Shown: positions 1 to 31,759 of the stretch, in pieces
Layout: each line of letters opens with the position of its first letter
Numbering within the stretch: position 1 is the first letter of the stretch
DNA from: Polytrichum commune
Taxonomy: Eukaryota; Streptophyta; Polytrichopsida; Polytrichales; Polytrichaceae
DNA length: 64,000 nucleotides
Assembly (NCBI GenBank): GCA_950295325.1
Contig: OX485807.1
Coordinates: 15,897,001-15,961,000, forward strand
Reading direction: 5' to 3'
Notes under the pieces: model-generated
Seen by the model: only the letters and a program-made list of their open reading frames with translations
Told to the model about the DNA's origin: nothing
Databases searched by the model: none
Position numbers and translations under genes: made by a program

Positions 1-2498
1 GCACACTACAAGAGCGCAACCCACAGCTGAGATGCAAAAAGAGTCCCGACGGTGGGGGGTGTCCCCTTAAGTACTGATCGCTTTACCTTGGATCCGTTTT
101 CCAACATAGGATACCAGCCACCAACTATGTCCTATAAATACAAACCTAGCATTACTACATTCCGTGTGCCAGCCTTACAATGGAATGTGTATTCATGTGG
201 ACTACATGCATAGACCATGAGTCCACATAATGACAAAGAAAAAGGCATCTATGTATTTGTGGTATACAACAAAGTAAATTGGCTAATATTATATGAGCAA
301 TAAACATTGTTGAGGGGTGGTTTATAATATTGGAGTACCTAATATGAAGAGTACATTTTAAAAAACGTAGACAACAAAATTAAATTAGCAACAACAATAG
401 TACATGGAGTATAAAAATACATGTAATCAAAATTAAATTAGCAACTACTTTATTGTTTTGCATACAATGTAATGGTATTGACCATAATATCATGCTATCT
501 CCTCTCATCTTGCATTTAATATTATAATTACATTGGCCACCACCTAACCATCCAACATTTTTAATTTACCCACCTATACACACCTATACATAATTGTATT
601 CATATCTGATACAGAAACTTTGATTACCGTAAGGCCATGATAGTAGCACATCTATTGTCCTAGGTAACATGGGTTGCATTAAATTCAATATTATCAATTT
701 TCTCTCTAAACCTTAGGGGCCCCTTCCGTACATCAACATTTACTTCAAAAAAACTAATTATACTAGCCTTCTTCATGTACTATACGTGAGGAAAAACATA
801 TTTTAGTACCTCATGTACATTACCTACATTAATTAATACTCAAACAATACCAATTGTTGCTCCAAGTAGCATTCTTACCCTCAACCCTAAACCCTATAAC
901 CACCCAAACCTAAACAAACATGTGGACATAGAGATGCAAGCATGGTTAACTGAACAACTCCTGATACATGTCAAGGCTTAAGTGGAAAGTAATTCAAAAC
1001 AAGCAAGCAAACAATTATACCAATTGTTGTTCTACGTAATACTATTAACCCATAAAATATAATGGACAGAAAGGGAGGGTAGGGTATCTAAATAGTAATA
1101 AGGCAACCAATATTAAGTCGGTGACACAAGGGGGATACTCTTAACCCTAAACCCTAAACCCTAAACCGTATAAACGACTCCCGACTCATGTCAAGGCTTA
1201 AAATTCTCTAAAACAAAACCATCAAGATTTCAAAAGTCAAGCAAATTTATGTTTACAAATTATTCTTGAAGACATGGTAAGTGGTGAAAAAGTAGGTGAC
1301 ATAGAACAAAGATTTATCAAATTGTGAATGGCAATCCGATATGTGGTCTTAATTTGGCTAAGGAAAAAGGTACATGGGTTGCGTAACCTTACCTTTTATT
1401 TTTTTAATCTTTGTTTGCCTGGGTAAAATCCACCCCTTAGAGGCAAGTACAAGATTTAGCCGAGACTTGTTATTCTTTGATGGGATACAATATGAAAACA
1501 ATTAAGCCTTCAAAACATTTAAGATCATCAAAGTTATGTTCTAAGTCATATTTATCCATTTGCTTTAAACCTTTACTTTTGAAGATAGGTTTTGAACATC
1601 ATATATTGGTATTCTATAATCGAATACTTAACACAACCATACATGTCGTGGAAACAAAACTCCAATATAAACAACAATTTGCTACTACTTATAGGCGATA
1701 ATACAAGCTCATACCTAGGTTTGGAAGGATTGCATGAATCCTGAAGGTTGTTTAATGGACAAGAGGGATGTAAATTCAACACCTACCCATTCCTTTTGTT
1801 CTAATACAAGCTTAGACCTATGTGCAGAGGGATTGAATTAACCCCTAACGTTGTTTAAGATATTATAAGCATTTGATCTTAACCCATATTATCTCGATGT
1901 TTGGTTTTGTTAATTGTGTTTCAAACATGCTTAATTTAAATATCATTAATAATGATATTCACATCAAAGCATCCCAAGTGTCCAACTTCAATAAAGTCCC
2001 CAAGTTGCTATTGATAGTATAATTTAGGTTGAAAATCCCCTTTCACAAATTATTGCGATAATTGAGGGATTCATAAGGGTGCAGGGGTTTAGGGTTAATT
2101 GAATTTTTGGCCAATGGGTATATTATTGTCCCAATTGCATTTGAATCCCACCTTTGTGGTAAAAAATTACAAAATGCTTTATCTTTTTTATTATTGATGT
2201 TATTTAATTGATGCCAATGACATAATATACAATGAATAGTTAATATAGCATTCCATAATTCTAAATATTAAGCAATACTACTTATAATATTTAGTGTACT
2301 AGTAATTTAAAGCCCGCTTACCTTCATATTACAACAAGTCCACAAAGAAAATCTTACACTTGAGTTACTCAACCTCAACCCATACTTCAAAATTATGTTT
2401 ACTATTGGGCCTAGATGGTTATTATAATTTGAGCATTGAGATTCCTTTATTTTTGGTCAGCAATTGTTTTTGGTATTCGTTTTTGGACTCACCACATA
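1..2498. other. AT-rich intergenic DNA, no gene seen
   Basis: No open frame here resembles a protein I recognise; the longest (about 74 codons) look random. Short interstitial telomere-type runs are visible: about two CCCTAAA units near 885-897 and four near 1,141-1,167. The rest is AT-rich sequence without clear repeats. Confidence 0.6.
1141..1167. repeat. Interstitial telomere-type repeat (CCCTAAA)4
   Basis: Four consecutive units of CCCTAAA, the plant Arabidopsis-type telomere repeat. Shorter runs of the same motif recur near 885, 3,058, 25,898, 39,818, 42,928-42,962, 44,143 and 54,215. These are interstitial motifs, not a chromosome end. Confidence 0.75.
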
Positions 2499-2956
2499 CA
2501 ATCCATCCTCTATAAATGTTATGCTCTGGAATATAATTTTCCTTACATTTATTGTGAGTTAACATTGTAACAACTATAAAGGGAGCTTTTTGAATGCTTA
2601 ACAAATTTGATTCATTACAATTATGGAGGGAGATTTTTGCAAAATTATAAATTATAAAATATGTGTATCAATCACAATATAACCCATATTAATAATTTGA
2701 TCACAAAAGTCAAATTTGGTGGCTTTTGCCACTTTGAAAGGTTGTGACTCAATGTAATGGATGTCATCTCACAATATTGGATGTAGTTCGTAGGTTAACA
2801 TTTATAAGTGGCAAATTAACAAAGAGGGGAATAAATTATTCTTAACATGTAACAAAGTTTACATTCTAGTTAGCAATATGAGAGGAGTACGAATTTGTTA
2901 ACAAATACAATTATGAGTTAACATGTGGAAGTGTAACATTTATCGAGGGTGGACTC
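2499..2956. mobile_element. Emigrant/pogo-like MITE, copy 1
   Basis: A 458-bp non-coding element flanked by TA on both sides. Its ends are imperfect terminal inverted repeats: the left end reads CAATCCATCCTCTATAAATG and the right end, reverse-complemented, reads GAGTCCACCCTCGATAAATG. The interior is closely similar to 14,976-15,463. The end sequence resembles the plant Emigrant family (Tc1/mariner superfamily, pogo group), which also duplicates TA. It encodes no transposase. Confidence 0.75.
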
Positions 2957-3058
2957 TAGCAATCACAAAATAGACCAATAGACATATGCCACGTAAGGGT
3001 TACATGTGGCCTTTGGGTGCGGGTTGATGGGACGTCTAGGTAGGGAGTGGATGTGACG

Positions 3059-3076
3059 TTTAGGGTTTAGGGTTTC
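3059..3076 (+). promoter_or_regulatory. Telo-box-like motif upstream of the palindrome gene
   Basis: TTTAGGG is repeated twice and followed by TTTCG. In plants, telo boxes of this sequence are common near transcription starts, often with pyrimidine-rich tracts. Here a CT-rich tract follows directly (about 3,080-3,400), so this is a plausible promoter-proximal site for the locus at 3.9-10.4 kb. The role is inferred from position only. Confidence 0.3.
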
Positions 3077-3079
3077 GAT

Positions 3080-3400
3080 ACACTCCCTTGCTCTTTGCTC
3101 CTTTCGCTCATTTTTGCTCATTTTGCTCCTTTCGCTTACTCCCTTTCGCTCCTTTCCTCCTTGCCCACCATCGTTCCTTTCCTCCTCGCCCTTGCTGCTC
3201 CTCCTTCTCCTCCTTCTCCCTTGCTACTATTACTGGTCCTCCTTCTCCCTTGCTGGTCCTCCTTCTCCTCCTCCTCCTTCTTGTTGTTTATCCTCTTTCT
3301 CCTCCTCCTTGCTCTTCCTTTGTTGTTTCTCCTCCTCCTTGCTCTTAGTTCCATAAGAGCGCCAGGAGCTCCAGGCAGGTGCTTTTTTCTTTCCCTCTTT
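3080..3400 (+). other. CT-rich leader or promoter tract
   Basis: A strongly pyrimidine-rich stretch of CTCCTT-type repeats. Several overlapping frames stay open only because of this low complexity, so I do not call a protein. It lies about 500 bases upstream of a spliced-looking 5' UTR exon and probably belongs to the promoter or first untranslated exon of the downstream gene. Confidence 0.4.
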
Positions 3401-3877
3401 GCTAGATGTGCTGTTCCAGGTGCTAATTAGGTGATTTGAGTTTATGTATTGATGCACAAGAGGAGGATTGTGAGTATTGTGTGAGCATGCAATGTTTTGT
3501 TGCACTCACAATTGCAAGTAACATCAGAAATTGAGTAGTTTTTTGCTTGCAGTCTCATTAGGACATTAATGGAGTAGTTTCAGTTGTTGCAAGGGTTTTA
3601 GGGTTGGAGTATTTCAGTTGTTTCAGAGTGCTCCTCCTTTCAGTTTGTAATTGTCTTTACTTCACTTGAATTCACTTTTTCCAAGTTCTAATAAATCATA
3701 TGTTTTACTTTGTTCACTTCTATCTGATGTCAATGTTCAATCCAGTGCAATCTTTGTAGTAGGGTTTTTTTGGTGGGTTTGATGCATTTTAGGAGCAACA
3801 CACAGTTTAGTTGAATCTTGAATGTGCACATTGCATTACCAGAGGTTTCTAACTTCAATTTTATTGTTAATTTGCAG

Positions 3878-3923
3878 TCTGTCCTAGCTGCAGCTATGGT
3901 TGAGCAGCAAACATTGTACAAAG
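3878..3923 (+). other. Probable 5' UTR exon with upstream ATG
   Basis: Bounded by a good acceptor (TTTGCAG just before) and a consensus donor (AAG|GTAAGT just after). It contains an ATG at 3,896. Joined to the next acceptor at 4,851/4,852, that ATG reads 18 codons (MVEQQTLYKDGIYKKTRY) and stops inside exon 2, overlapping the main start in another frame. It would therefore act as an overlapping upstream ORF. The exon is inferred from splice signals alone. Confidence 0.45.
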
Positions 3924-4172
3924 GTAAGTGTTTCTAGTACATTGCAAATTGAAATGGAACATTCTTCTTAGTTTGGAGTGTAGAATCTGCTATTGCAATG
4001 CAACACCTGATATATTCTAATTTGGAGTGCAAATCCATGTTGCATTCCAAGTAAAGATGAACATTGCACATGAATGGAATGCAACAAAAAACTTGTTCCG
4101 AAAATTTCGGAGCAATATCCAGAAACACAGTAATTGTGCAAAGTAATTAAATTCAGAGTAATTAAAAAATGG

Positions 4173-4796
4173 CCTGAAGTTTACGGACGCGCGTCCGTAA
4201 ACTTCAGGGAACCCTGGGAATATGCATCGCACTATATGTGAACAGTTTACGGACGCACGTCCGTAAATTGTAGATATATTTAAAAAGAACTATTTAAAAA
4301 CATGAATGATAAGTTTACGGACGTGCGTCCGTAAACTTGAAATATCTAAGTACAATAAATGTGGTACATGATACATGTGCAGAGTTTACGGACGCGCGTC
4401 CGTAAACTAGGCAGCAAAAGCTATGAAAATCTCAGAGTATAATACATGTCATGGGTTTTCAAAATAAGTTCTACAAAATATACAAGTTCTACACAAAAAA
4501 AATGAACTTATTTTCCAAGAATTTACGGACGCACGTCCGTAAATTAGGTCTACATAATAATAATAAACATATTATATTCATGGAATATAGAAATAGAAAC
4601 TTTTGGATGATATATGTGCAGAGTTTACGGACGCGGGTCCGTAAACTCTGCACATATATCATGTATGTGATTTCTTTTTATAAGATATCTCAAGTTTACG
4701 GACATGTGTCCGTAAACTTGACATGTACTATAACATAATACATAACCACATTATATAGGAAAGGGTACGCAAAGGTTTACGACCGCGCGTTCGTAA
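4173..4796. repeat. Cluster of eight palindromes in intron 1
   Basis: Eight copies of a 22-bp palindrome (TTTACGGACGC joined to GCGTCCGTAAA) at about 4,180-4,201, 4,246-4,267, 4,314-4,335, 4,385-4,406, 4,522-4,543, 4,624-4,645, 4,695-4,716 and 4,776-4,796 (degenerate). The first extends to a perfect 36-bp palindrome (4,173-4,208). The sixth extends to 26-bp arms with a 4-bp centre (4,607-4,662). They sit in otherwise AT-rich intron sequence, spaced about 50-140 bp apart. Confidence 0.95.
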
Positions 4797-4851
4797 GATA
4801 GGCTCTGCATCCCCAGACCTTAATACTGACTTGTATATTTTACATTTGCAG

Positions 4852-7800
4852 ATGGAATCTACAAAAAGACCCGCTATTGATTTATTCGCAGAGCTTGTCC
4901 ATCCTCCGCTTCCAAAAGCCATCAAAGACATAAGCCACAACGACCATTACAAGCCACGCGAAGACATTGTAGATAACTGGACAGTTATTGTAGAAAAAGA
5001 CGAAAATGATATATTTGTCCTTAGATTTGCCTATCAAATAAAAGCAGATATACATGAATCCGAGAAGTGGATGAAGGTAAAAAACTGGACAGTAGAGTGT
5101 GCGGTAGCCCAAGGTGATTATGTTGTCATTGACCTTGAAAAGAAAAATGATAGGATCACATTCATTTTGCACGAGTTGTACCATCCGTTCAACAAAAATG
5201 AATGTGAAAATGCCAGCCCAGATGCGTCTTGCTTCAATTTACAGAATGAATTCCAAGACTATGCATGCAATGCACCCTGGACGGGTAAACGGCTTGGACG
5301 TCTCTTGAACAATGTGACAAGAGTAAATGGGGCATTACTGGAAGCCAAGAAAGGAAAGGCGAAAAAACCAGTTCCTGAACGACCTAAACGTGTTCCTAAA
5401 CACGTGCCAGAAGCCTCGAGACCCTCACAGAGTGGGGCATCAAGAGGGAGCAAGCAGACTAGTAAACGCTCCCACTCACAGATGGAGTCGTCAGGGCTAA
5501 CAGAGGGTCCAGATGTGAGCTCTACTCTTACTGTCGCACCACTCCTGAAGAAAGGACAACGCCCTGACGCCGAACTTTTCACAAAGATTTTCCAAGAGTT
5601 CGACGAGAAGACAAAGGGCTGCTGGCCACTTGGAAGATATTTCACGTTTGATGTGGATGTCTACAAATGCCACAAGGGCACGGAGAGTATGAATACTCGT
5701 GCCAAAGAAGAGACCGGGGTGTGGTGGCAAATGAATAACATTATGAACAACCCCAAATTTGATAGGCAAACCATATGTGTGACACCAAAGGATCCTGTGG
5801 TTGAAGTCACAGCGCAAAACTGGCCAATTCTCAAAGATGGAGAGTTCTACATAGTCGACGGCCAACATAGTGTGATGGCTGCAAAAGCTCTCCTAGAGGA
5901 CGATGAGTGGAAGAGCCCTTTGAAAGAGACAATCCGATACTGGAAGGCATTCGTCGTCCATTCCAAAGACTCGAACCAGCTCATCGCAATATCTGCCTTC
6001 ATGAACTAAGGGAATAAAGTGAGGCAGTTCGAGGCTTCATGGGCTGCCAACATCGTGGCTGGAAGGACCTTGTGGGTAGAGCACGATTGTCCCCCAAAAG
6101 AGAGGGAGAATGCAGTCATCAAGAATCCCAAATGGCAGGTATGTCTCAGTATAATTTTACGGACGCGCGTCCGTAAACTTCTTCCCATCTCCTTCCAATT
6201 CTTTAATTCCTTTGATTTAAGCTGTACTGATTTCTTGTAATACATGGCATTGCAGACATTCAGCAATGCCATCTTGACAAAGTTCTCCAGCATTGACTTG
6301 AAGACAAGCGGCATGAAGACGGTGCAGGAGCTGAAGGGGGAACTTAAGCTCATCACCGCCACAGAAGAGACATGGGCAATTTGGTTGCGCCTATTCGATG
6401 CCCACAACAACGGAGACCTTATCAATCCGGATGCAGAAAACACGTACAAGAGCGACTCGAAGGTTAAGGTGCCACCTATCCTGAGAGAGTTCTTTCGTCC
6501 CCTCCAAGGATTGCTCGACTCCGAACTGTACAGAGCGGCACAACACATCCTATTGGAGACTCCGAGGAGGACACTGCCCTACCCCAAAATCTTCCTGAAG
6601 CGGCCGAAGCACATGAAGCCTTCCACGTACCACATTAAAGAATGGTGCGAATACAGGAAGAAGAAGACCATGACTATAAGGGAAATTAGCAAGCTGCTGC
6701 CCTTCCACAACCTCACTGATACAGATGGTGAAATAATGTGGGAAAACTGGAGGACGCTCAAGGAGGAATATCACATCAATGGGGTCTCCATGCGATCATT
6801 GATAAGAGGCGCATCTCCCTTCCTAGCCCAAAGATCTAGAAGGAACGAGAAGAAAGGGTCTATCGACGAAAGAGAGACGGCGTTGTACGTCCATTTCCTT
6901 GACAGAAAAAAGAAAGCAAAATTCGAAGGGGTCGCAAGATTCTGCACTATTACAACGGCCTTGAAGTTTGGCACATGGGACACACATGCTTCAAGAGCCT
7001 CTGTGAGAGATGACCCCCGGGGTTGTCCGTTCGCACTATTTGATTTCCGTGCATTTCCCGGATCTTGGAGACAAAACGCTAGCGGGACCGCTTTCTATGA
7101 CAACTTCTTCAAGGCCTTCAAGAGCTATCGATCGCCTGCCCTCTTCGAGCCAAATGTGTGGCTCTGGATCGTAGATCAAGAGAGGTCCGCATCGGTCGTC
7201 CAGCTTTACACATCGACGATGAACCTCCAATACGATCTTTACCACAGCACATACATCCCCGCGAAGACGGAAGGGATCAGTGTTATTGAAGAGGCAAGAG
7301 GGGCGAAGCAGGTCGGGGCTTTGGCACTTTATTTCTTGACACACAAGTCTTCACCAAGTGGGCGGATGCCTATCAAAGCGCAGAACGTGTTCAAGAAAGT
7401 ATACTCGTTGCCACCACCACACCCCAAGGAGCTTGTCGCGGAGACTATGTATGCAATCTACCCGGCGTACGAGCTCCGAATGGATTTTTATATTGGAGTC
7501 TTGAAGGCTGTGACTGTGATGAGTGAAACAGTTTACAACGTCTTCGGAGGCACCAAATTTGTTTATGCGGCATTGGTAAGTACTTGTATGCACCTCTTTC
7601 CATGGTTCATCTGAATTGAAATTTACGGCCGCGCGTCCGTAACATTGGCCACACAAATATGCAGTGTAAATTTACGGCCGCGCGTCCGTAAATTGCAGTG
7701 CTTCATGATTATATTTGTCCTCATACTTGCTTGCAACAATGGAATGACTATAATTTCCTTGTTTTGGTGCAGATGCTTGGGTTGCAGGTAAATTCGTTTG

Positions 7801-10350
7801 TGGAGGCTCGCGACATGGATGAGGCGAATACTCATAGGGTTCTTGCCTCGAAAATGGATATCGAAGACATCATCGATGTCCTTACCCCCCATCCTGTGGT
7901 GCCTCTTGCCTCAAGAGAAGAGGGAACTCCTGCGACGGAGTGGGACAGTGACGGAGACCAAGAGCCCGTCTCCCCAAGAGAGCAGCCAGCCAGACAAGAT
8001 CACGTGCCCGGCCTTGTTCGTGATCCTGTTCATCCTCATCAATTTGTCTTGGGCGAAGACCACATGGATACAGAGGGGGCACAGGAAGACTTCACTCCAA
8101 TAAGGGTCCATCCTACCCCTATTTCCTCTCCCTTTGGGACTCCCACTTCTCGAGTTGGGTTTCCTTCCACTGCGGGTCCATCGCGTGCTGCTGGGCTTAT
8201 GGCAGAGAAGGATGTGGACGTTGCGACAGAAGCCGGATGCACAGCCTCATCTGGAGGGGGATCTGAACAGGCAGAGCTACCACCTATGGAGGGTAGAGAT
8301 GTGCTGGAGTTGATTTTGAGGCCGGATATCGCCTCATACCGTGAGAGTCGTCGACAGAGGAAGAAGACTCCTTACAACGAGTACCCTGAAGGCGCCGTCT
8401 TGGAACTCTTCGATGAAGACGAGGATGAGGTTAGGATGTACAATGCCCTCTCTGCGTTGCCTTCTGAACCTGGCAAGGTGAAGAAAGAGCCGATGTCTGT
8501 GGCCGAATTGGACGAGAAACTGGAGAAGAGAATGAAGGAAGAGCTTGACCAACGGCTTCGAGAAGCTAACGAGGAGCACGCCAAAAAGATGGCCGCCATC
8601 CAAGCTGAGATGGAGGAGGCTAGGTTGGAGTCTGCTAGAAGGCACGCCGATCTCATGGCTCAAAATCAACAATTCTTGGCCCAGAGCCAACAATTTATGA
8701 GCCTCATGCAGAGCTTGCAAGCAAGACCCCCAGTAATGTATGCAGCTCCCGAAGCCGGCATGTCGATGCCTCCCACTCTCATGCGGCCTCCGTCTAGTAG
8801 CCATACGGTGTACATACCAGAGCATACCTATCCAGCCCCCGCCTTGTATGTCCCGCCCTCTCCCCAGGTTGCCGACACCCCAGAGCCCTCCTCTCATAGC
8901 GTACAAGAGGAGGAGAGACCTGCACGTTATACGGCAGGTGCTCACGAGAAAGGCGCCATTGAAGACATCACAACCATTGGCAGCCAAGAAGATGAAGATA
9001 TGCGGGGCAGCCAAGAGGATGAACATATGCGGGGCAGCCAAGAAGATGAACATATGCGGGGCAGCCAAGACACCACAGATGAAGATCAACCTCATGTCGA
9101 TACCCAGGGGTCGCAAGCGGCTGGAGGCGCCTTGGTGGTGGAGGATAGCATGCACAATTTTGCGGACGCGCGTCCGGAACCTGTGCCCACGATGGGGCCT
9201 GGTGAGGGAGGCACTGCTGGCGAGGGCCTCTCCGCTGAAGAGGTAATCCACCTTTGAGCTTGCCTCCCACGTTATGGACGCGTGTCCGAAACTTCCTTGT
9301 CTGCCAACTTCGTGGCGTGTGCATATTGTCGAGTTCGATGCTCGGCTTCGCCCGGCGGGTGGATGCAATTTTGCCAGCATAGATTCAATTAGTTTTAGGG
9401 GAGACCTTTTGTGACAATGTAAATTATTCGCGAAATGTATTAAACCAATCACATTAATACAAATTTTTTGAACTGTGTATTAGTATTCTTTTTGCCTTAT
9501 ATTTGTTTGTTGAGTTTGTGCATGCTTGTCAATTGGTTTTCATGGGTAGTACCATTCACCTAGATAGTATTTTCATTCACAGGGTCCGTCGGAGATATGT
9601 CACAACCCCGCTGAAAGACCAAGCCGGCCCATGAGGAAACCGTTCATAATATTTGACCTCAATGGGGTGCTTTGTCATTCCATGCATATCTCCAATAGTG
9701 CGTCGAAGGGTCCCTTCCGTAGTCCACAAGACATGGATTACGGCGGACAGTTCGATACTCTCATTAACAAGAAGGTTGTACGGGCCCGGCCGGGGTTGAG
9801 GTGCTTCCTTCGTGATGTCCTTGGCTTGGCCCATGTCATCATCTGGAGCTCTATGCTCATGGACAACACGAAGGCCATCGTCGGTTTCCTTTTCCGAGAA
9901 CTCGCAATGCCATGCTTGCTTCTCGGTCAAGAACACTGCGATGACCTTTATGACCGTAATGGCAACATTGTACCCAAGGTCGGAGGAGGCCGAGGGCCTC
10001 AATTCCTAAAGGTACTGAGGAAGAACCTTTGGGTGGGCGTCCCTATGTTGGAGGGGGTGCCCCACGGTTGTTGGCCCACCCCGGAGAACACGCTCCTCAT
10101 TGACGACAGCCCGGCAAAGAGTATTCTCAATCCCCCGGGCAGTTGCATATTCCCGGATCCTTGGGAGAGTGATAGAAATGACAACTTTCTAGAGAATGAA
10201 CTAGGACCCTACATTAGGAGGCTTGCCTATCACCCCGGAAGTGTCCCGGATTTTGTCCTCTCCAACCCCATTGGCAATAGGCCTCTAGGCCCAAGAGATG
10301 AGGAATTTAGGAGGTTGTACGGCTATGCCAAACTCAATAAATTAATATGA
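4852..10350 (+). CDS. Large multidomain protein: DGQH/ParB-like, degenerate DNA methyltransferase-like, coiled coil, FCP1-like phosphatase; one in-frame stop
   Basis: I join exons 4,852-6,138, 6,256-7,575, 7,773-9,242 and 9,583-10,350. All junctions are phase 0 with consensus GT-AG sites, giving about 1,614 codons. The first ATG lies directly after an acceptor. Residues 331-350 carry FYIVDGQHSVMAAK, like the DGQH core of ParB/DGQHR-type domains. Residues 857-883 (NVFGGTKFVYAAL-MLGLQVNSFVEARD, across intron 3) match the layout of motif I of N4/N6 DNA methyltransferases (F-G-G ... AA ... G ... E), preceded by an HPKELV segment where such enzymes have HP-T-KP. I see no DPPY motif, so catalysis is doubtful. 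Exon 4 is acidic and proline-rich with a coiled coil near residues 1,115-1,190. Exon 5 holds a HAD/FCP1 domain. An in-frame TAA at 6,007-6,009 (codon 386) means either a young pseudogene, read-through or a sequence error. ParB-plus-methyltransferase fusions are known in phages and mobile elements; assignment here is inference. Confidence 0.6.
6007..6009 (+). other. In-frame TAA inside exon 2
   Basis: The frame is open for 385 codons before this TAA and 43 codons after it, up to a consensus donor at 6,138/6,139, and protein-like sequence continues across it (AISAFMN, stop, GNKVRQFEASWAANI). A single C-to-T change from CAA (Gln) would explain it. No splice-site pair of normal strength removes it. 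Confidence 0.8.
6156..6177. repeat. Palindrome in intron 2
   Basis: A perfect copy of the 22-bp palindrome, starting 17 bases after the donor of the 117-bp intron 6,139-6,255. Confidence 0.95.
7621..7692. repeat. Two palindromes in intron 3
   Basis: Copies at 7,622-7,643 and 7,671-7,692 inside intron 7,576-7,772. Both share the same variant, GGCC in place of GGAC in the left half, so one was probably copied from the other. Confidence 0.9.
8979..9070 (+). repeat. 27-bp coding tandem repeat (GSQEDEHMR)
   Basis: Three full units and a partial fourth, encoding GSQEDEDMR, GSQEDEHMR, GSQEDEHMR, GSQ. The units are nearly identical at DNA level, so the expansion is recent. It lies in the acidic, presumably disordered C-terminal part of exon 4. 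Confidence 0.9.
9158..9178. repeat. Palindrome inside coding exon 4
   Basis: A slightly diverged palindrome copy (TTTGCGGACGCGCGTCCGGA) read in frame as FADARPEP. It is the only copy in coding sequence. Confidence 0.85.
9271..9292. repeat. Palindrome in intron 4
   Basis: A diverged copy (GTTATGGACGCGTGTCCGAA) starting 28 bases after the donor at 9,243, in intron 9,243-9,582. If the intron is retained, translation stops at 9,255-9,257. Confidence 0.8.
9583..10350 (+). CDS. FCP1/NIF-type HAD phosphatase-like exon
   Basis: This exon encodes a domain of the FCP1/small CTD phosphatase kind. Counting from the ATG at 9,631, motif I is FDLNGVL with the nucleophile Asp at residue 9, motif II is IIWSS, and the late acidic motif is LLIDDSPAK (D158, D159). 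The second motif I Asp (DxD) is Asn here, a change I also associate with several plant HAD proteins; it removes the usual general acid. The frame is open upstream of the ATG to an acceptor at 9,582/9,583 and joins exon 4 in phase, so it is probably the C-terminal domain of the long protein. It could instead be a separate 239-aa gene starting at 9,631. Confidence 0.7.
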   Translation, partial: GPSEICHNPAERPSRPMRKPFIIFDLNGVLCHSMHISNSASKGPFRSPQDMDYGGQFDTLINKKVVRARPGLRCFLRDVLGLAHVIIWSSMLMDNTKAIVGFLFRELAMPCLLLGQEHCDDLYDRNGNIVPKVGGGRGPQFLKVLRKNLWVGVPMLEGVPHGCWPTPENTLLIDDSPAKSILNPPGSCIFPDPWESDRNDNFLENELGPYIRRLAYHPGSVPDFVLSNPIGNRPLGPRDEEFRRLYGYAKLNKLI

Positions 10351-10438
10351 TAACTGCTTTTTGGGTTTGTACTTGGACTCTCCATGTTTATATCTAACAT
10401 TTCTCCCCGTATTTTGTAAATGTATTTTTGTGTCTTAG

Positions 10439-11323
10439 TTGCCTCACCAAGGATCCCAAAGTCTCGTCCATGGCATGTGTGCATCTAAACCGGGCCCCAG
10501 CTCCCCTTCCATTGGTGTGACCGACATTTCAATGCCTTCACTATTTCAATTTTCTGCCGTCGATGCCGCCTCTGCTGTTGATTACTCCAAAGACTCGGGG
10601 TTTGAAGACGGAGTTGTCGATAGCCCTCCTCCAAAGGTTGCAAAACTCAATTACGCTCCATCTCCATCTCCATCTCCCCTCCGCAATGAGAAGCACGTTC
10701 GAAACCCGCGGTCGACCAGACGCCTTTGTATGGATGAACCCCAAATTGGTGTCCCGGCGTTTACGAGCGTCCCTGTTGTGCTTGTGGCCCCCCTCGATGT
10801 CGCAGAAGCTCAAACCACCGCCCCGCAGGCCAAGGTGCCCAATTATTGGCATTCTCAAGTTTTTTCTTCATGATTTCCGTGGATTAGTGCATTTCATATT
10901 ATTGGGTTTTTCGGACTTCCATCCGTAACTTATACTAACCCACATCATTATATGTATTTATGGTCATTGTTTCAGACCCCAATACACATGAATGTGGACC
11001 GTTCATCCTCGACTTCGTCATTGGATAGGCGAACACTGAAGACTGCTTCTTGCGAGTCTGATCGTTGTTTGGCCCTACGGAAGAGTGAAAGACGTTCGTT
11101 TTCCCAATCGCATTCGTATTCCACTTATTCGGTAGGGGGTCGGCAAATATGGGCAAATGGCACATATTCGGGGTCGACAAATACACAAGGTTTTAGCCGC
11201 GGACCCGAGATCTTTAGAGCCATGGAGGCCATGAAAGCAAAAGAACGTGAAACGGCCATAAATGCTAATAATAGTATTGCAAAAGCAAAAGTAGTGAGTC
11301 GTAATCATGATCCGAACGTATAG
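10439..11323 (+). CDS. Two phase-matched exons of unknown function
   Basis: Exon 10,439-10,834 follows an acceptor (TGTCTTAG) and ends QAK at a GT donor. Exon 10,976-11,323 follows TTTCAG and runs TPIHMNVDRSSSTSSLDRR to a TAG. Both are phase 0. The product (about 247 residues) is rich in Ser, Pro and charged residues, with KDSGFEDGVVDSPPPKVAKL and a Lys/Ala-rich C-terminus; no domain is recognised. An AATAAA lies near 11,420. I find no phase-0 donor in the phosphatase exon that would join it before its stop at 10,350. So this is either an alternative 3' part of the same locus or a separate gene whose 5' exon I cannot place. Confidence 0.4.
10909..10930. repeat. Degenerate palindrome in intron 10,835-10,975
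   Basis: TTTTTCGGACTTCCATCCGTAA keeps both outer half-sites (CGGAC and TCCGTAA) but has lost the CG-rich centre. Its presence ties these exons to the upstream locus. Confidence 0.5.
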
Positions 11324-11930
11324 GCTATATTAACATACATGTAGTTGTGGAATTATGTTTCTAGGACTTTCGCCTAATATTGGATATTCCACTTGTATTT
11401 TGTACTTCAACCCCTATTCAATAAATATGATATTGATTTTCCATATGCAAATGTTTTCATATATCCCATTTTCTTATTTTTATGTGTGGTTCCATGCATT
11501 TGAGTCTCTTATTTGTTTCCAAAATTGGGAACATAGCATATTTTTAGTGTTTTCCTTCCTACAAATGTGAAAGCCACGTCCTTAAATAGTCTCAAAATCA
11601 ACAAAAAGTCTCCAATTACCGAATATAGTGTTATATGCTTGGTTACACTAATGATCAACAACATCATCATTAGTGTCACCTCATGACATTGGTGTTTAAG
11701 TGCGCTTATTAATACCTTGGCATGAGTATGTTCAATAATGTTATGAGGTGTATGCTTATGTTACACAACGGTCTACAAGTAGAGTAAAGTGTGTACAAAT
11801 AACACTTGGCATTGGTATGTTCAAGAATATTTCCCTCTTGCATACTAAAATGTAAACACATAACACTTGCCATTAGTATGCTCAATTATATCTTGCCCTT
11901 GCTTATTAAAATGCAAAACTATCATCTCAA
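11324..11930. other. AT-rich intergenic DNA, no gene seen
   Basis: It starts with the probable 3' UTR of the preceding exons (AATAAA near 11,420), followed by AT-rich sequence with a weak repeat of the phrase CACTTGCCATTAGTATG and variants around 11,700-11,880. No protein-like frame is seen. Confidence 0.5.
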
Positions 11931-14545: not shown

Positions 14546-14975
14546 GCATGGAGAAAAAGTGTCCGTTTAAGACCCGCTCACCGTAGTGTAGTTTGTTTGC
14601 CAAAAGTAAAGAGTCCGGTAAAGGTATGGGGCCGGGCCGTAAATGTGGGAGATAGCGTGCATAGGGATATCCGCTGCCTCTTTGAGGGCCCGGAGCCAAT
14701 AGAAGCTAAGCTAGGGCCCGTTTTGAAGTGCATTTCAAGCTTTTAAGGCACGTGTGGCTGCTTTAACTTACGTTGATTGGAACATGGACATTGTTCATCA
14801 ATGGGTATAACTTATAATTAGGCGACCCTTGCCCAATCTCATTTTCATTGGTGGCCTTTGGAATCGGGTTGTTGTGGCCCATCACCCCCAAGGGCCAATC
14901 CACCCCTCAATTCATGCCAAAAGCACCTAAAGGAGTGATTTCCGATGCGCCTTCTAAAACGCGCCCCTCTAGGTA

Positions 14976-15463
14976 CAGTCCACCCTCTATAAATGTTAGG
15001 CTCTGGAGTAAAATTTTCCTAACATTTATAGTGAGTTAACATTGTAACAATTATAAAGGGAGCTTTTTGAATGCTTAACAAATGTAAATTCATTACAATT
15101 ATGGAGGGAGAGTTTTGCAAAATTATCATATATAAAATATGTGTATCAAATCAATCTTTAATTTTTATGAAACAAAATAAGAATCAATATAATCTAGATG
15201 AATAATTTGATCACAAAAGTCAAATTTGGTGGCTTTTGCCACTTTGAAAGGTTGTGAGTCAATGTAATGGATGTCATCACAAAATATTGGATGTATTTCG
15301 TAGGTTAACATTTATAAGTGGCAAATTAACAAAGAGGGGAGTAAATTATTGTTAACATTTAACATAGTTAACATTCTAGTTAGCAATATGAGGGGAGTAC
15401 GATTTTGTCAACAAATATAACGAGTTAACGTTTATAAGTGTAACATTTATCGAGGGTGGACTG
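14976..15463. mobile_element. Emigrant/pogo-like MITE, copy 2
   Basis: A 488-bp element flanked by TA. The left end is CAGTCCACCCTCTATAAATG and the right end, reverse-complemented, is CAGTCCACCCTCGATAAATG. Internally it is close to 2,499-2,956, so the two copies are quite recent. It is non-coding. Confidence 0.8.
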
Positions 15464-15474
15464 TATAAGTTAGG

Positions 15475-27065: not shown

Positions 27066-27109
27066 TTCTTCGTTCTCGGTTCGGGAGCTTGTAGAGTGAG
27101 TGCGAGGTC

Positions 27110-30100
27110 ATGGATACCTCGAAGTTTACGCACAAGACGAACGAAGCGCTCGCGGTCGGCCAAGATCTAGCAACCGAAGCCGGCCATGCGCAGTACACTC
27201 CAGTCCACCTCGCCCTTGCTCTGCTTAATGACAACGAAGGATTGTTGAGGCAAGCGATTACCTCAGCGTCCGGGAGCGAGGGGACGATCAGTTCTGTCGA
27301 GCGCCTGTTGAATTTGTGTTTGAAGAAACTTCCGGCGCAGAGCCCGGCTCCTGATACTTCCCCGGCTAACAATGCACTCATCAAGTGTATTAAGAAGGCA
27401 CAGAGTCTGCAAAAATCGCGAGGAGACTCGCACTTAGCGGTCGATCAGCTCATTCTTGCTTTGCTTGATGATCCTCAAATTGGAGATTGCTTCAAGGAGG
27501 CTGGCGTCAGTTCTGCCAGGTGAAATTCATCTTCTGCTGTTTTGATGAGATGATGTTATTTTTTCTGTTTTATTCGTCAATTTGAGCTCCTAAGCTTCAT
27601 CTACAGTGAATATGTTTGGCTTGGAGACTGGTTTTCGTTTTACATTTTCTACTGTGCCTTTGTGACCATCGATGTGTTGTATGATGGTTTGTACACGTTG
27701 TTCGCCTTCTTGAATAGTGTGCCAAACTTCTCTGAATACAAGTTTCTTGCATCAATACTCTGGGAGATATGATAATTTTGCTGCAGTTTTATCTTCGCAC
27801 TAATCTCTTTTATTTACCCTTTTGACTATCTTCGAGAAGTGTGGGAATCGTTATTGAATAGTTATTTGAGACATTTTATCACGATTTGCAACATGCTTAA
27901 TCAAAATATAGGTGGGGAAGGTGATGAATGACCGGGATGAGCGATTCATGCCAGCTGAGATGGACTTTCAGGGTAGCGATTAGGTTACGAGTTGGAAATA
28001 AACGAGTTGATGAACGACCTGTCCTAACCTGGATGCCTTTTCACTTCTTACAGAGTGAAGAAAGAGCTCGAAACAGTCAGGGGATTCTCCAAAAAGGTGG
28101 AGAATGCAACTGGTGACACCAACTTCCAAGCCCTGAAGAAATACGGCAGAGATCTAGTTGAGCAAGCCTCGAAGCTGGATCCCGTCATTGGAAGGGACGA
28201 TGAAATTCGGAGAGTTGTGAGAATCCTTTCTCGAAGGACAAAGAATAACCCAGTGTTGATTGGAGAACCTGGTGTTGGCAAAACTGCTGTTGTAGAGGGC
28301 CTTGCGCAGCGGATTGTAAGAGGTGATGTACCAAGGTAAGTGTATGACTTAAGTTACTGCCTTTTGTTTGGCATTGTATATCTTCTTTCATGCTGCAGTC
28401 TCTAACCCTAACCTCCTGCATTCAGGGCCACTTTGACTAATATTGAGACAAGTCTGGCCATTTTGACCATCCATTTTTAATTATTGTTTCGTTTGTGCAG
28501 TAATTTGATGGAAGTCCGGCTGGTTGCCCTAGATATGGGAGCTTTGGTTGCGGGTGCCAAGTACAGAGGTGAATTCGAAGAGCGGCTCAAATCTGTCCTC
28601 AAGGAGGTAGAGGACGCTGATGGCAAAGTCATTTTGTTCATCGACGAGATACACCTCGTTCTTGGTGCAGGTACGCTCTACTTCATTTACTTACCTTCAG
28701 CAATCTAAATGCATGGCTAATTTAATTCGACACACTTCACTTTGCTCTCTCCTTGGAGTTTGAGATCTTTGTTGAATAGGCGACTTGGGGTACTTTATAC
28801 TCTGGCTTCTTCCTCATCGACTCACACTAGCACGACCATTTGGGTACAGGGCGCACAGAGGGGTCAATGGATGCTGCGAATCTCTTGAAGCCAATGCTTG
28901 CACGAGGTCAGCTGCGCTGCATTGGTGCTACAACACTTGAGGAATACAGGAAATATGTCGAGAAGGACGCAGCCTTTGAGCGCCGATTCCAACAGGTCAG
29001 TCCCACCCCCGGTATCGAGGACAATGTATAGGAGGGATATGATGATGATGTTTTCTTTACTCTACCTTTACTTGAATTGTGGAGCCTGAATTGTTCAGGT
29101 AAATTTCCTTGAGGGTCTCTTAAGCAACTGAAGAAAAGGTTAATTTTAACAGGGTCTCAAAAAAACAACCTTGTGCTAATTCTTGTTGTGGGAAATTATC
29201 AACTCACAGATCCATATGTGGTGCAGGTCCTTGTCGCAGAGCCGAGCGTGCCGGATACTATCAGTATTTTGAGAGGATTGAAAGAGAAGTATGAGGGACA
29301 TCATGGTGTTCGTCTGTTAGATAGGGCTCTGGTAGTGGCTGCTCAGCTATCAAGTCGCTACATAACAGGCAGATTTCTACCTGACAAAGCGATCGACTTG
29401 ATAGATGAAGCATGCGCCAATGTACGTGTACAACTGGATAGCCAGCCTGAAGAAATTGATGTGATGGAAAGGAGGAGGGTTCAGCTGGAGGTGGAGCTCC
29501 ATGCTCTTGAGAAGGAGAAAGACAAGGCCAGCAAGGCTCGCTTACTTGAGGTAACTTTTGAACTTATATTTTGAGATGCATAGCTATTTTACGTATTTAA
29601 TCCTCTGTCTATGCCATATTGGGATCACATCAGGTATTTGATGCACAATTTTCACCTGTGATTTCTTGGATATGTGATAGGTGCGGCAAGAACTTGATAA
29701 CATACACGATCAGCTGAGGCCCTTGAAGATGAAGTACCAAAGAGAAAAAGAGAGGTTGGATGAGCTTCGGAGGCTGAAACAGAAACGGGAGGAGCTGCAA
29801 GCCAACTTGGTGGATGCAGAACGGCGATATGACTTGGCAAGAGCTGCTGACTTGAAGTATGGTGCACTTCAAGAGCTGGAAAAGACTATCATCAAGTTTG
29901 AATCTGAACTTGGAGAGAACAACATGCTCACTGAGATTGTGGGGCCTGATCAGGTTGCTGAGGTAAGTGGTCATTGCCCGAGTTTTGTTCTCAAGGAATG
30001 ACAGTAGAGTTCCATCTTTTGTGAGCTAAGATTTGTAATGTGGGAATTGAAACCGTTTTTGTCCTGGTACTTTTCAGTTATGGAGCTTCTACTCTTTGTA

Positions 30101-31759
30101 TACTTGTTCCAAGCCGTGAGTGAGCATTATATTGAAGGTAGCGTGCCATTCTATGTTGTGCAGGTGGTCAGTCGCTGGACCGGTATTCCAGTGACGAGAC
30201 TAGGCCAGAATGAGAAAAGCCGGCTTTTGGGCTTAGCAGAGCGTCTGCACCAGCGTGTTGTTGGTCAAGATGAAGCTGTCCAAGCTGTAGCGGAGGCAGT
30301 TCTAAGATCACGGGCTGGTTTAGGGCGACAACAACAGCCCACTGGATCATTCCTTTTCCTTGGCCCAACAGGAGTTGGTAAGACAGAGTTGGCGAAAGCT
30401 CTGGCTGAGCAACTATTTGACAAAGAGAACCAACTTGTTCGCCTAGATATGTCCGAATACATGGAACAGCACTCTGTTGCACGACTTATTGGTGCTCCAC
30501 CAGGGTACGTCTGCAATCTCCGTATGTATATGCTCGTGCTACTCTGTAGCATGACTTGTTTAAACCACTTTGTCCATGTGAATTTTGAAGATTCATGCCA
30601 TTTTGATCGTTCAAGGAAATCAAGAAATGTTGCCTTTCTCCTGATTAAAAGGATATTCGCTTTTTGTTTTGCTTTTCCTAGTTGCTGAATCTGCAACTGT
30701 ATATCATTTTGCAGGTATGTGGGACACGATGAAGGTGGTCAGCTTACAGAAGCAGTGCGTAGGCGTCCGTACAGTGTTGTTCTCTTTGATGAAGTAGAGA
30801 AAGCCCACCCCTCAGTTTTCAACACGCTCTTGCAGTTGTTGGATGACGGTCGCCTGACTGATGGTGCTGGTCGGACTGTGGATTTCACCAACACAGTTGT
30901 CATCATGACATCCAATCTGGGTGCAGAGCACTTACTTTCTGGTTTGACTGGAGTGATAAGCATGGAGTCTGCTAAGAAAAAGGTGATGGAGGAGGTGCGG
31001 GTACATTTTCGGCCAGAACTCCTGAACCGGTTGGATGAGATTGTGGTCTTTGAGCCACTTGCGCATGCACAACTTCTGAAGGTGGCCCGCATGCAGATGA
31101 AAGATGTAGCTCTGCGGCTTGCAGAACGAGGCGTTGCTTTGGCTGTCACAGATGCTGCCCTCGACCTTGTTCTTGCAGAGTCCTACGATCCGGTAAGCTA
31201 CCTTCCAAAACCTCTGTCTGTTACATATCTGTGTCTGCTAAGCTATCTTCCAACAGCAAACATGTTTCTAGCTGCTTCGAGGCGTAGACCAACAAAAAAT
31301 AATGTGGCATAAAACTGGTCCTTCCAAGGCACTGAAGATTTGTTCAATCCTTTAGAAACTTTACATCAGCATGTAGCATCGCAATTGTGTGACCAGATGG
31401 CTTATTAAGCTTGAGTTGTATGTAGTCTTCATCTGTATCTTACAAAAATTTATTGTCATCTGGATCAGGTGTATGGTGCTCGCCCATTGAGAAGGTGGCT
31501 GGAGCGCAAGGTGGTCACTCATTTGTCGAGGATGGTGATCAATGATGAGGTTGATGACAATTCAACAGTGTACATAGATGCCAAGCCAGGAGCCCACACC
31601 CTTACATACAAAGTAGAGCGCAACGGTGGCTTTGTAAACAGCGACACTGGTGTCAAATCGGACATTCTCATCGAGGTCCCGAAGGCGCAGCTGAATGAGG
31701 CGAAGAAGATGAGAATTGAGGAAGTAGTTGACGATGCTGACATGGATGAGGACTTGTAA
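27110..31759 (+). CDS. HSP101: Cytosolic HSP101/ClpB disaggregase
   Basis: An AAA+ ATPase that, with Hsp70, pulls aggregated proteins apart; needed for acquired heat tolerance in plants. Nine exons: 27,110-27,519; 28,054-28,335; 28,501-28,670; 28,850-28,995; 29,227-29,550; 29,681-29,962; 30,164-30,504; 30,715-31,192; 31,469-31,759. All sites are GT-AG and phases are consistent, giving 907 aa, about the length of Arabidopsis HSP101. The Clp N-domain is at about 1-145. NBD1 has Walker A GEPGVGKT (207-214), Walker B ILFIDE (D279, E280), pore loop KYRGEF and ERRFQQ. A long coiled-coil M-domain follows. NBD2 has Walker A GPTGVGKT (605-612), pore motif GYVGH and Walker [11 protein letters not shown] (D677, E678). 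The acidic tail ends DADMDEDL. It starts [14 protein letters not shown] with no transit peptide, which points to the cytosol/nucleus. It appears intact. Confidence 0.96.

Follow-up and report, generated by a model that had tools for sequence, protein, structure and literature searches.

Introduction

The transposase of VANDAL elements is of the Mutator type, CACTA elements generate 3-bp target site duplications (TSDs), and the bacterial ParB-parS system, with its palindromic parS sites, offers a further comparison. In Arabidopsis, short motifs in introns and in upstream regions are the binding sites of the VANC proteins of VANDAL elements (PMC5735166; PMC10398659), and those of VANC21, located in both, have formed tandem repeats (PMC5735166). 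The motifs accumulate as tandem repeats and differ by family, and conservation is much stronger in the transposase than in VANC (PMC5735166; PMC10398659). CACTA elements have subterminal repeats bound by TnpA (PMC8195511).

Here, we analyse 22-bp palindromes in a stretch of 64,000 nucleotides (64 kb) from the moss Polytrichum commune, referred to as the window. These palindromes belong to a high-copy DNA transposon and not to one ordinary gene. A search of an incomplete literature collection found no description of a palindrome-carrying DUF7869 transposon system.

Results

Palindromes in the window and in the genome

The 22-mer TTTACGGACGCGCGTCCGTAAA has 11 matches in the window at ≤3 mismatches, all between 4180 and 9180, whereas 100 shuffles of the window give 0. 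At ≤6 mismatches, 14 sites are found from 4180 to 10929 and none in the rest of the 64 kb, which bears out the sequence-only reading that 13 copies and a degenerate one lie between 4,173 and 10,930 and nowhere else. Its counts per intron (eight, one, two, one, and one degenerate copy in the last intron) also hold. One copy, however, is located in coding exon 4 (Table 1). The sequence-only reading took the introns as lying between coding exons, but intron 1 belongs to the 5' leader, the long frame starting at the ATG directly after it. Regarding the proposed distance of 17-50 bases from the donor, this applies to introns 2-4 (17, 46, and 28 bases) but not to intron 1 (256) or the last intron (73).

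Moreover, the palindrome is not private to one gene or locus. The genome contains 5,214 matches at ≤3 mismatches, against 2 for the reversed control, a total that probably takes in part of the sites of the related family F1b because these, with one base different per arm, are close enough to the F1 pattern. The expectation that the copies would concentrate at related loci rather than spread through the genome stands in part: there are thousands of them, yet among the exact palindromes listed for C1, 67 of the 68 (hand count) lie <14 kb from a copy of exon 3 of the gene described below as gene B. Eight further palindromes are present just left of the window, in the left half of the element.

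Table 1. Location of the transposon, its genes, and the palindromes (window positions unless a genome coordinate is given).
Feature	Position	Strand	Remarks
DNA transposon, 16,435 bp (16.4 kb)	G000:C5:15892198-15908632		Borders and terminal inverted repeats (TIRs) common to other genomic copies
Right 11.6 kb of the transposon	1..11632	+	Left border 4,803 bases before the window
Right TIR	11605..11632	-	Starts AACACTATATTCG; 1/28 mismatch to left TIR
TSD ATAT, 4 bp	11633..11636		Second copy left of the window
Gene B 5'-leader intron 1 (predicted)	3924..4851	+	8 palindromes
Palindrome cluster, 22 bp each	4180..4797		Starts 4180, 4246, 4314, 4385, 4522, 4624, 4695, 4776
Gene B exon 2	4852..6138	+	Weak ParB-like and YEATS-like leads only
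Intron 2 (predicted)	6139..6255	+	Palindrome 6156-6177
Gene B exon 3	6256..7575	+	Without known domain
Intron 3 (predicted)	7576..7772	+	Palindromes 7622-7643, 7671-7692
Gene B exon 4	7773..9242	+	Coding palindrome 9159-9180, translated NFADARPEP
Intron 4 (predicted)	9243..9582	+	Degenerate palindrome 9271-9292
Gene B exon 5	9583..10350	+	NIF/FCP1-like phosphatase domain, PF03031, E 2.2e-12
Two more conserved open frames, 10439-10834 and 10976-11323	10439..11323	+	
Intron between the two downstream frames (predicted)	10835-10975		Degenerate palindrome 10908-10929

Borders and copies of the transposon

The pattern of the right end occurs at 407 places in the genome and that of the left end at 603, the reversed controls giving 0. 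An exact 4-bp target duplication of varied sequence is observed in 21 of the 21 element pairs checked (18 chosen from the listed ends by a spacing of 14-21 kb and three added to these). Also, a sister copy with 99% identity in exon 3 harbors a second element, of the family F2, flanked by the TSD AAAT, and the uninterrupted insertion site is present in another copy. With inverted repeats, a TSD of fixed length, and an empty site, the element is a TIR DNA transposon. The TIR is common to F1, F1b, and F2; element ends were looked for in the examined F3 loci and not found. Outside the element, the open frames at 27095-31312 of the window resemble a ClpB/Hsp100 chaperone gene.

Two genes of the element

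The left half contains a gene that lies beyond the window on the minus strand; at L003:5749-7260, it matches DUF7869 (PF25273) with an E value of 6.3e-38 and 130.7 bits against a cut-off of 26. Based on sequence, the DUF7869 protein is probably the transposase, and it is called so below. Its Pfam scan returns DUF7869 only, with no Mutator-type transposase, and scans of the element genes give no Transposase_21/24 match. A genome search for DUF7869 yields 150 scored matches among 1,490 candidates, and none of 14 control genomes (0/14) has a match. By name, DUF7869 is absent from the papers in the incomplete literature collection searched.

The gene of the right half, gene B, encodes a protein of ~1,600 aa with the NIF/FCP1-like domain, of a kind known from plants, at its end. 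In copies of two other subfamilies, the joined exons 2-5 form an uninterrupted frame, of 1,597 aa in one and 1,588 aa in the other; in the window copy, exon 2 contains an in-frame stop at 6007-6009. The predicted introns are of the GT-AG type, and their splice signals are retained in the copies compared (for intron 1, those other than L051, in which the anchor was not placed), with the exception of the acceptor of the last intron, which is CAA in L007. In the genome, exon 3 has 96 scored matches among 1,176 candidates, most of them 90-100, 82-85, or 77-78% identical, and by hand count 77 of the 96 are free of stops. The F1 reading frames show dN/dS values of 0.08-0.20, and the comparisons with F2 are saturated. 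The two frames after the stop of gene B, which are 43% and 37% identical in F2, may correspond to a third gene or to alternative C-terminal exons of gene B.

Outside the NIF domain, searches of gene B against Pfam, NCBIfam, PHROGs, and the PDB gave weak matches only. For exon 2 these are YEATS (E 0.015), DUF6551 (E 0.12), and a ParB-like stretch (DGQHS; PHROG 1033, E 0.02 at best), with no Pfam hit above the cut-off; profile searches of the PDB gave nothing significant, and single-sequence structure predictions of exons 2 and 3 reached a pLDDT of 34-35, too poor for use. At the exon 3/4 junction, a likeness to DNA methyltransferases was discarded, this region being without a Pfam match even at E 10. 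Among viral contigs, no relative of exon 3 or of the transposase was confirmed. In F3, gene B was sought in three further stretches, where a NIF-like stretch of uncertain ownership was the only candidate.

Position of the palindromes in the element

In the window copy of the element, 22 sites are found at ≤6 arm mismatches, of which 21 are intronic by prediction and the other is coding. On the side of the transposase gene, seven occupy the predicted 5'-leader intron and one a predicted internal intron. On the side of gene B, eight are located in the 5'-leader intron and one in exon 4, and the remaining five correspond to later predicted introns of the right half. A palindrome scan of the element shows none in the 4.4 kb between both leader clusters and none near the left end. 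The sites lie inside the element, at a distance of 2.1 kb from its left end and, except for one degenerate site, of >2.3 kb from its right end. Among the predicted introns, that of the transposase leader is the least certain: its acceptor just before the ATG is seen in the window copy, in the copies termed here the 84% copy (L009) and the 78% copy (L051), and in F2, whereas a donor-like site of the pattern searched for was found in the window copy only.

Some of the clusters are tandem arrays, with spacings of about 45, 78, 95, and 135 bp. At L063:5027-5684, 15 F3 palindromes form a tandem array of 44-46 bp units located 5' of the F3 transposase, which shows how the number of sites can grow.

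Family-specific versions of the palindrome

All versions share a 10-2-10 layout, with two 10-bp half-sites and a looser 2-bp center. The palindrome is TTTACGGACG-NN-CGTCCGTAAA in F1, which comprises three subfamilies, and TTTACGAACG-NN-CGTTCGTAAA in F1b (three loci), which differs from F1 in one base per arm. In F2 (one element) it is GTTTGGGTCG-NN-CGACCCAAAC, with 13,296 places in the genome at ≤2 mismatches and 0 for the control, and in F3 (one neighborhood and L058) it is CCCACGGGTG-NN-CACCCGTGGG. At ≤1 mismatch, sites of the own type number 13, 14, and 19 in three F1 elements, 18 in F1b, 37 in F2, and 26 in F3. At this threshold, each motif is confined to its own family in the loci examined, a single F1b-like site of the 84% F1 copy being the exception. 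At ≤3 mismatches the F1 and F1b motifs overlap, whereas those of F2 and F3 are absent from the other families in the loci examined. Two distant DUF7869 loci carry none of the four motifs, and Markov-shuffled controls give 0.

In F2, the sites are found in the introns that match introns 1-3 and at the end of exon 4. Between F1 and F2, gene B segments are just 25-50% identical, whereas transposase segments reach 56-67% (65% in the C-terminal segment), except for one stretch of 88 aa at 35%. At the level of sequence, the families suggest that each may encode a protein recognising only its own DNA.

Other palindromes were observed in the genome. Recurring ones, for example GGACTTCCATGGATGGAAGTCC (L048, L050), are grouped at L048:3364-3840, L050:624-1156, L052:5437-6007, and L059:7104-7201, and perhaps represent an unrelated short hairpin element. 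At L051:8044-9305, palindromes similar to GTGTTTCGGGCCCGAAACAC are repeated about every 250 bp, adjoining the right end of the 78% copy. Also, long 59-bp tandem arrays with GGTGAGGCATATGCCCCACC palindromes are located at L059:4861-9079, near a distant DUF7869 gene. This array could be the code of another family; it is not counted as a fifth one because its tie to that gene is putative.

Conservation, symmetry, and mosaic structure

The palindromes outlast the surrounding sequence of introns 1-3. With respect to the 84% copy, their identity in introns 1, 2, and 3 is 0.78, 0.95, and 0.89, compared with 0.48, 0.63, and 0.45 for the remainder, the palindrome values being inflated by alignment, as any two palindrome copies resemble each other, and intron 2 having been taken three bases too long. 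With respect to the 78% copy, the values for introns 2 and 3 are 1.00 and 0.91 against 0.49 and 0.52, intron 1 being excluded because its anchor was not placed. In introns 4 and 5, conservation extends over the whole length and the contrast is small; in the comparison with the 78% copy, identity in intron 4 is lower for the palindrome (0.77) than for the remainder (0.82). The near-identical copies L005 and L007 are uninformative, with 0.91 for the intron 4 palindrome and 0.98-0.99 for the remainder.

Among 51 distinct F1 22-mers, changes affecting both arms are complementary in 17 cases and not in 5. When shuffled, such changes are complementary in 4.55 cases on average and 12 at most, and 0 of 1000 shuffles reach 17; this figure is not a clean probability because the sites are related by duplication. 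The F1 center is far from free, being CG in 62 of 86 sites. That of F2 is freer, with eight dinucleotides in the 39 sites at ≤3 mismatches (hand count) and ten in all 43, and 409 of the 430 F2 arm pairs correspond to the consensus.

The element has a mosaic structure. When the 84% copy is compared in sliding segments, identity is mostly 82-98% in the outer parts and 47-61% in the middle (about 2000-4800 of the window), near the level of a forced alignment; with the 78% copy, identity is only 65% over the first 400 bases. Between the window copy and the 84% copy, dS is 0.84 for exon 2 and 0.82 for exon 3, compared with 0.16 for a transposase segment and 0.19 for exon 5. Because the faster divergence of exons 2-3 goes along with a higher dS, it points not to positive selection but to a cassette, comprising the promoter side and the first exons of gene B, that is older or was exchanged. 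A repeat of ~490 bp at 14974-15465 of the window, outside the element, is 86-92% similar to the variable middle (near 2500-2960), and may be a dispersed repeat that possibly entered the transposon too.

Discussion

Proposed function and alternatives

We propose that a two-gene transposon family carries 22-bp palindromes in introns of both genes, which would be spliced, and that the palindromes would be DNA binding sites for a dimeric protein encoded by the element, most likely that of gene B. This protein would recognise its own family only and might keep it expressed, either by activation or by the removal of silencing. We lean, by a modest preference, toward this whole scheme of dimer sites for a family-specific element protein, with gene B as the most likely reader and a VANC-like self-recognition. 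It agrees with one suggestion of the sequence-only reading, that the palindrome is a cis-acting site retained at this locus at the DNA level. This suggestion is supported by the conservation of the sites, which exceeds that of the remaining sequence in introns 1-3, by their family specificity, and by their travelling with a gene of the element.

The transposase itself could be the reader, the palindromes then being recognition or enhancer sites for the assembly of the transposition complex, as the subterminal TnpA sites in En/Spm. In favor of this, sites occur in F1, F1b, F2, and F3, all with the same type of transposase, and the left 5 kb of the F1b-type locus L055 keeps palindromes though no queried protein matches there. 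However, the internal position of the sites is at odds with such a role, and the protein seems too conserved between F1 and F2, considering its C-terminal segment, for a reader of half-sites in which most bases have changed; we consider this explanation unlikely. A host DNA-binding protein, hijacked by the transposon, appears still less probable: a host activator could account for clusters close to the 5' end of each gene, but a sequence that differs in each family within a constant 10-2-10 architecture is unexpected with a single host reader.

The palindromes might also act as RNA hairpins in the pre-mRNA, in splicing or as a source of small RNAs, as the location of 21 of the 22 sites in predicted introns of the window copy would allow. 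Nonetheless, one-sided changes in the arms, read on the sense strand, comprise 19 G-U and 18 A-C cases (11 and 13 on the side of gene B, 8 and 5 on that of the transposase). This lack of wobble preference speaks for the recognition of DNA by two monomers rather than for an RNA stem. Moreover, sites are found in coding exon 4 of both F1 and F2, and an Rfam scan of the window gives nothing at gathering thresholds, so that we regard a hairpin function as very improbable. Finally, the introns could have been made by neutral tandem repeats or by an introner-like element, whose ends the sequence-only reading suggested to be palindromic, in which case the palindromes would have arisen by chance. The tandem arrays in some clusters and the presence of a repeated sequence within introns, as in introners, are compatible with this. 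The introner reading is rejected because the palindromes are internal to the introns, one copy is exonic, and the same intron positions recur in families whose palindromes are quite different. The retention of the palindromes in introns 1-3 and the compensated changes in the arms also speak against a neutral origin, which we find barely credible.

Comparison with known systems

The proposed recognition by gene B would most resemble the VANDAL/VANC systems (VANDAL21/VANC21 and VANDAL6/VANC6). In these, as in the moss element, the motifs are family-specific, often tandem, change together, and are found in introns (predicted ones here) and upstream regions, and a fast-diverging second protein lies beside a more conserved transposase (PMC5735166; PMC10398659). 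However, the transposase is here a DUF7869 protein, the exons and joined pieces of gene B give no DUF1985 or DUF287 Pfam hit, and the TSD is 4 bp. The VANC motif is the 9-bp YAGTATTAY, whereas a 22-bp palindrome of two arms is observed here. Also, motif binding and loss of DNA methylation are features of VANC, and for the moss element binding and anti-silencing are proposed. Because proteins, TSD, and motif architecture differ, the element is not classified as a VANDAL.

With En/Spm (CACTA), the element shares the organization of a two-gene DNA transposon with repeated motifs resembling binding sites, and CACTA is found two bases inside the TIR. Nonetheless, the TIR begins AACACTA and the TSD is 4 bp, in disagreement with a CACTA assignment. 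Moreover, the sites are internal and intronic and not subterminal, the location described for CACTA (PMC8195511). The likeness to ParB-parS, no more than a lead, consists of the palindromic sites and the weak ParB-like stretch in exon 2 of gene B.

A further possibility, which we put forward tentatively and hold to be somewhat short of probable, is that a self-recognition code arose independently in a transposon lineage that is not related to VANDAL, with the palindrome of each family, distributed over introns and even a coding exon, paired with its own gene B, and with motif and reader changing together, possibly via exchange of the central cassette. The transposon accounts for the presence of palindromes in every intron of a seemingly ordinary gene. 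Moreover, four half-site versions in one genome, together with a diverging partner gene, constitute a natural series for the co-change of specificity and site. If binding is shown, self-recognition by plant transposons would not be peculiar to VANDALs and would have arisen more than once, with unrelated proteins.
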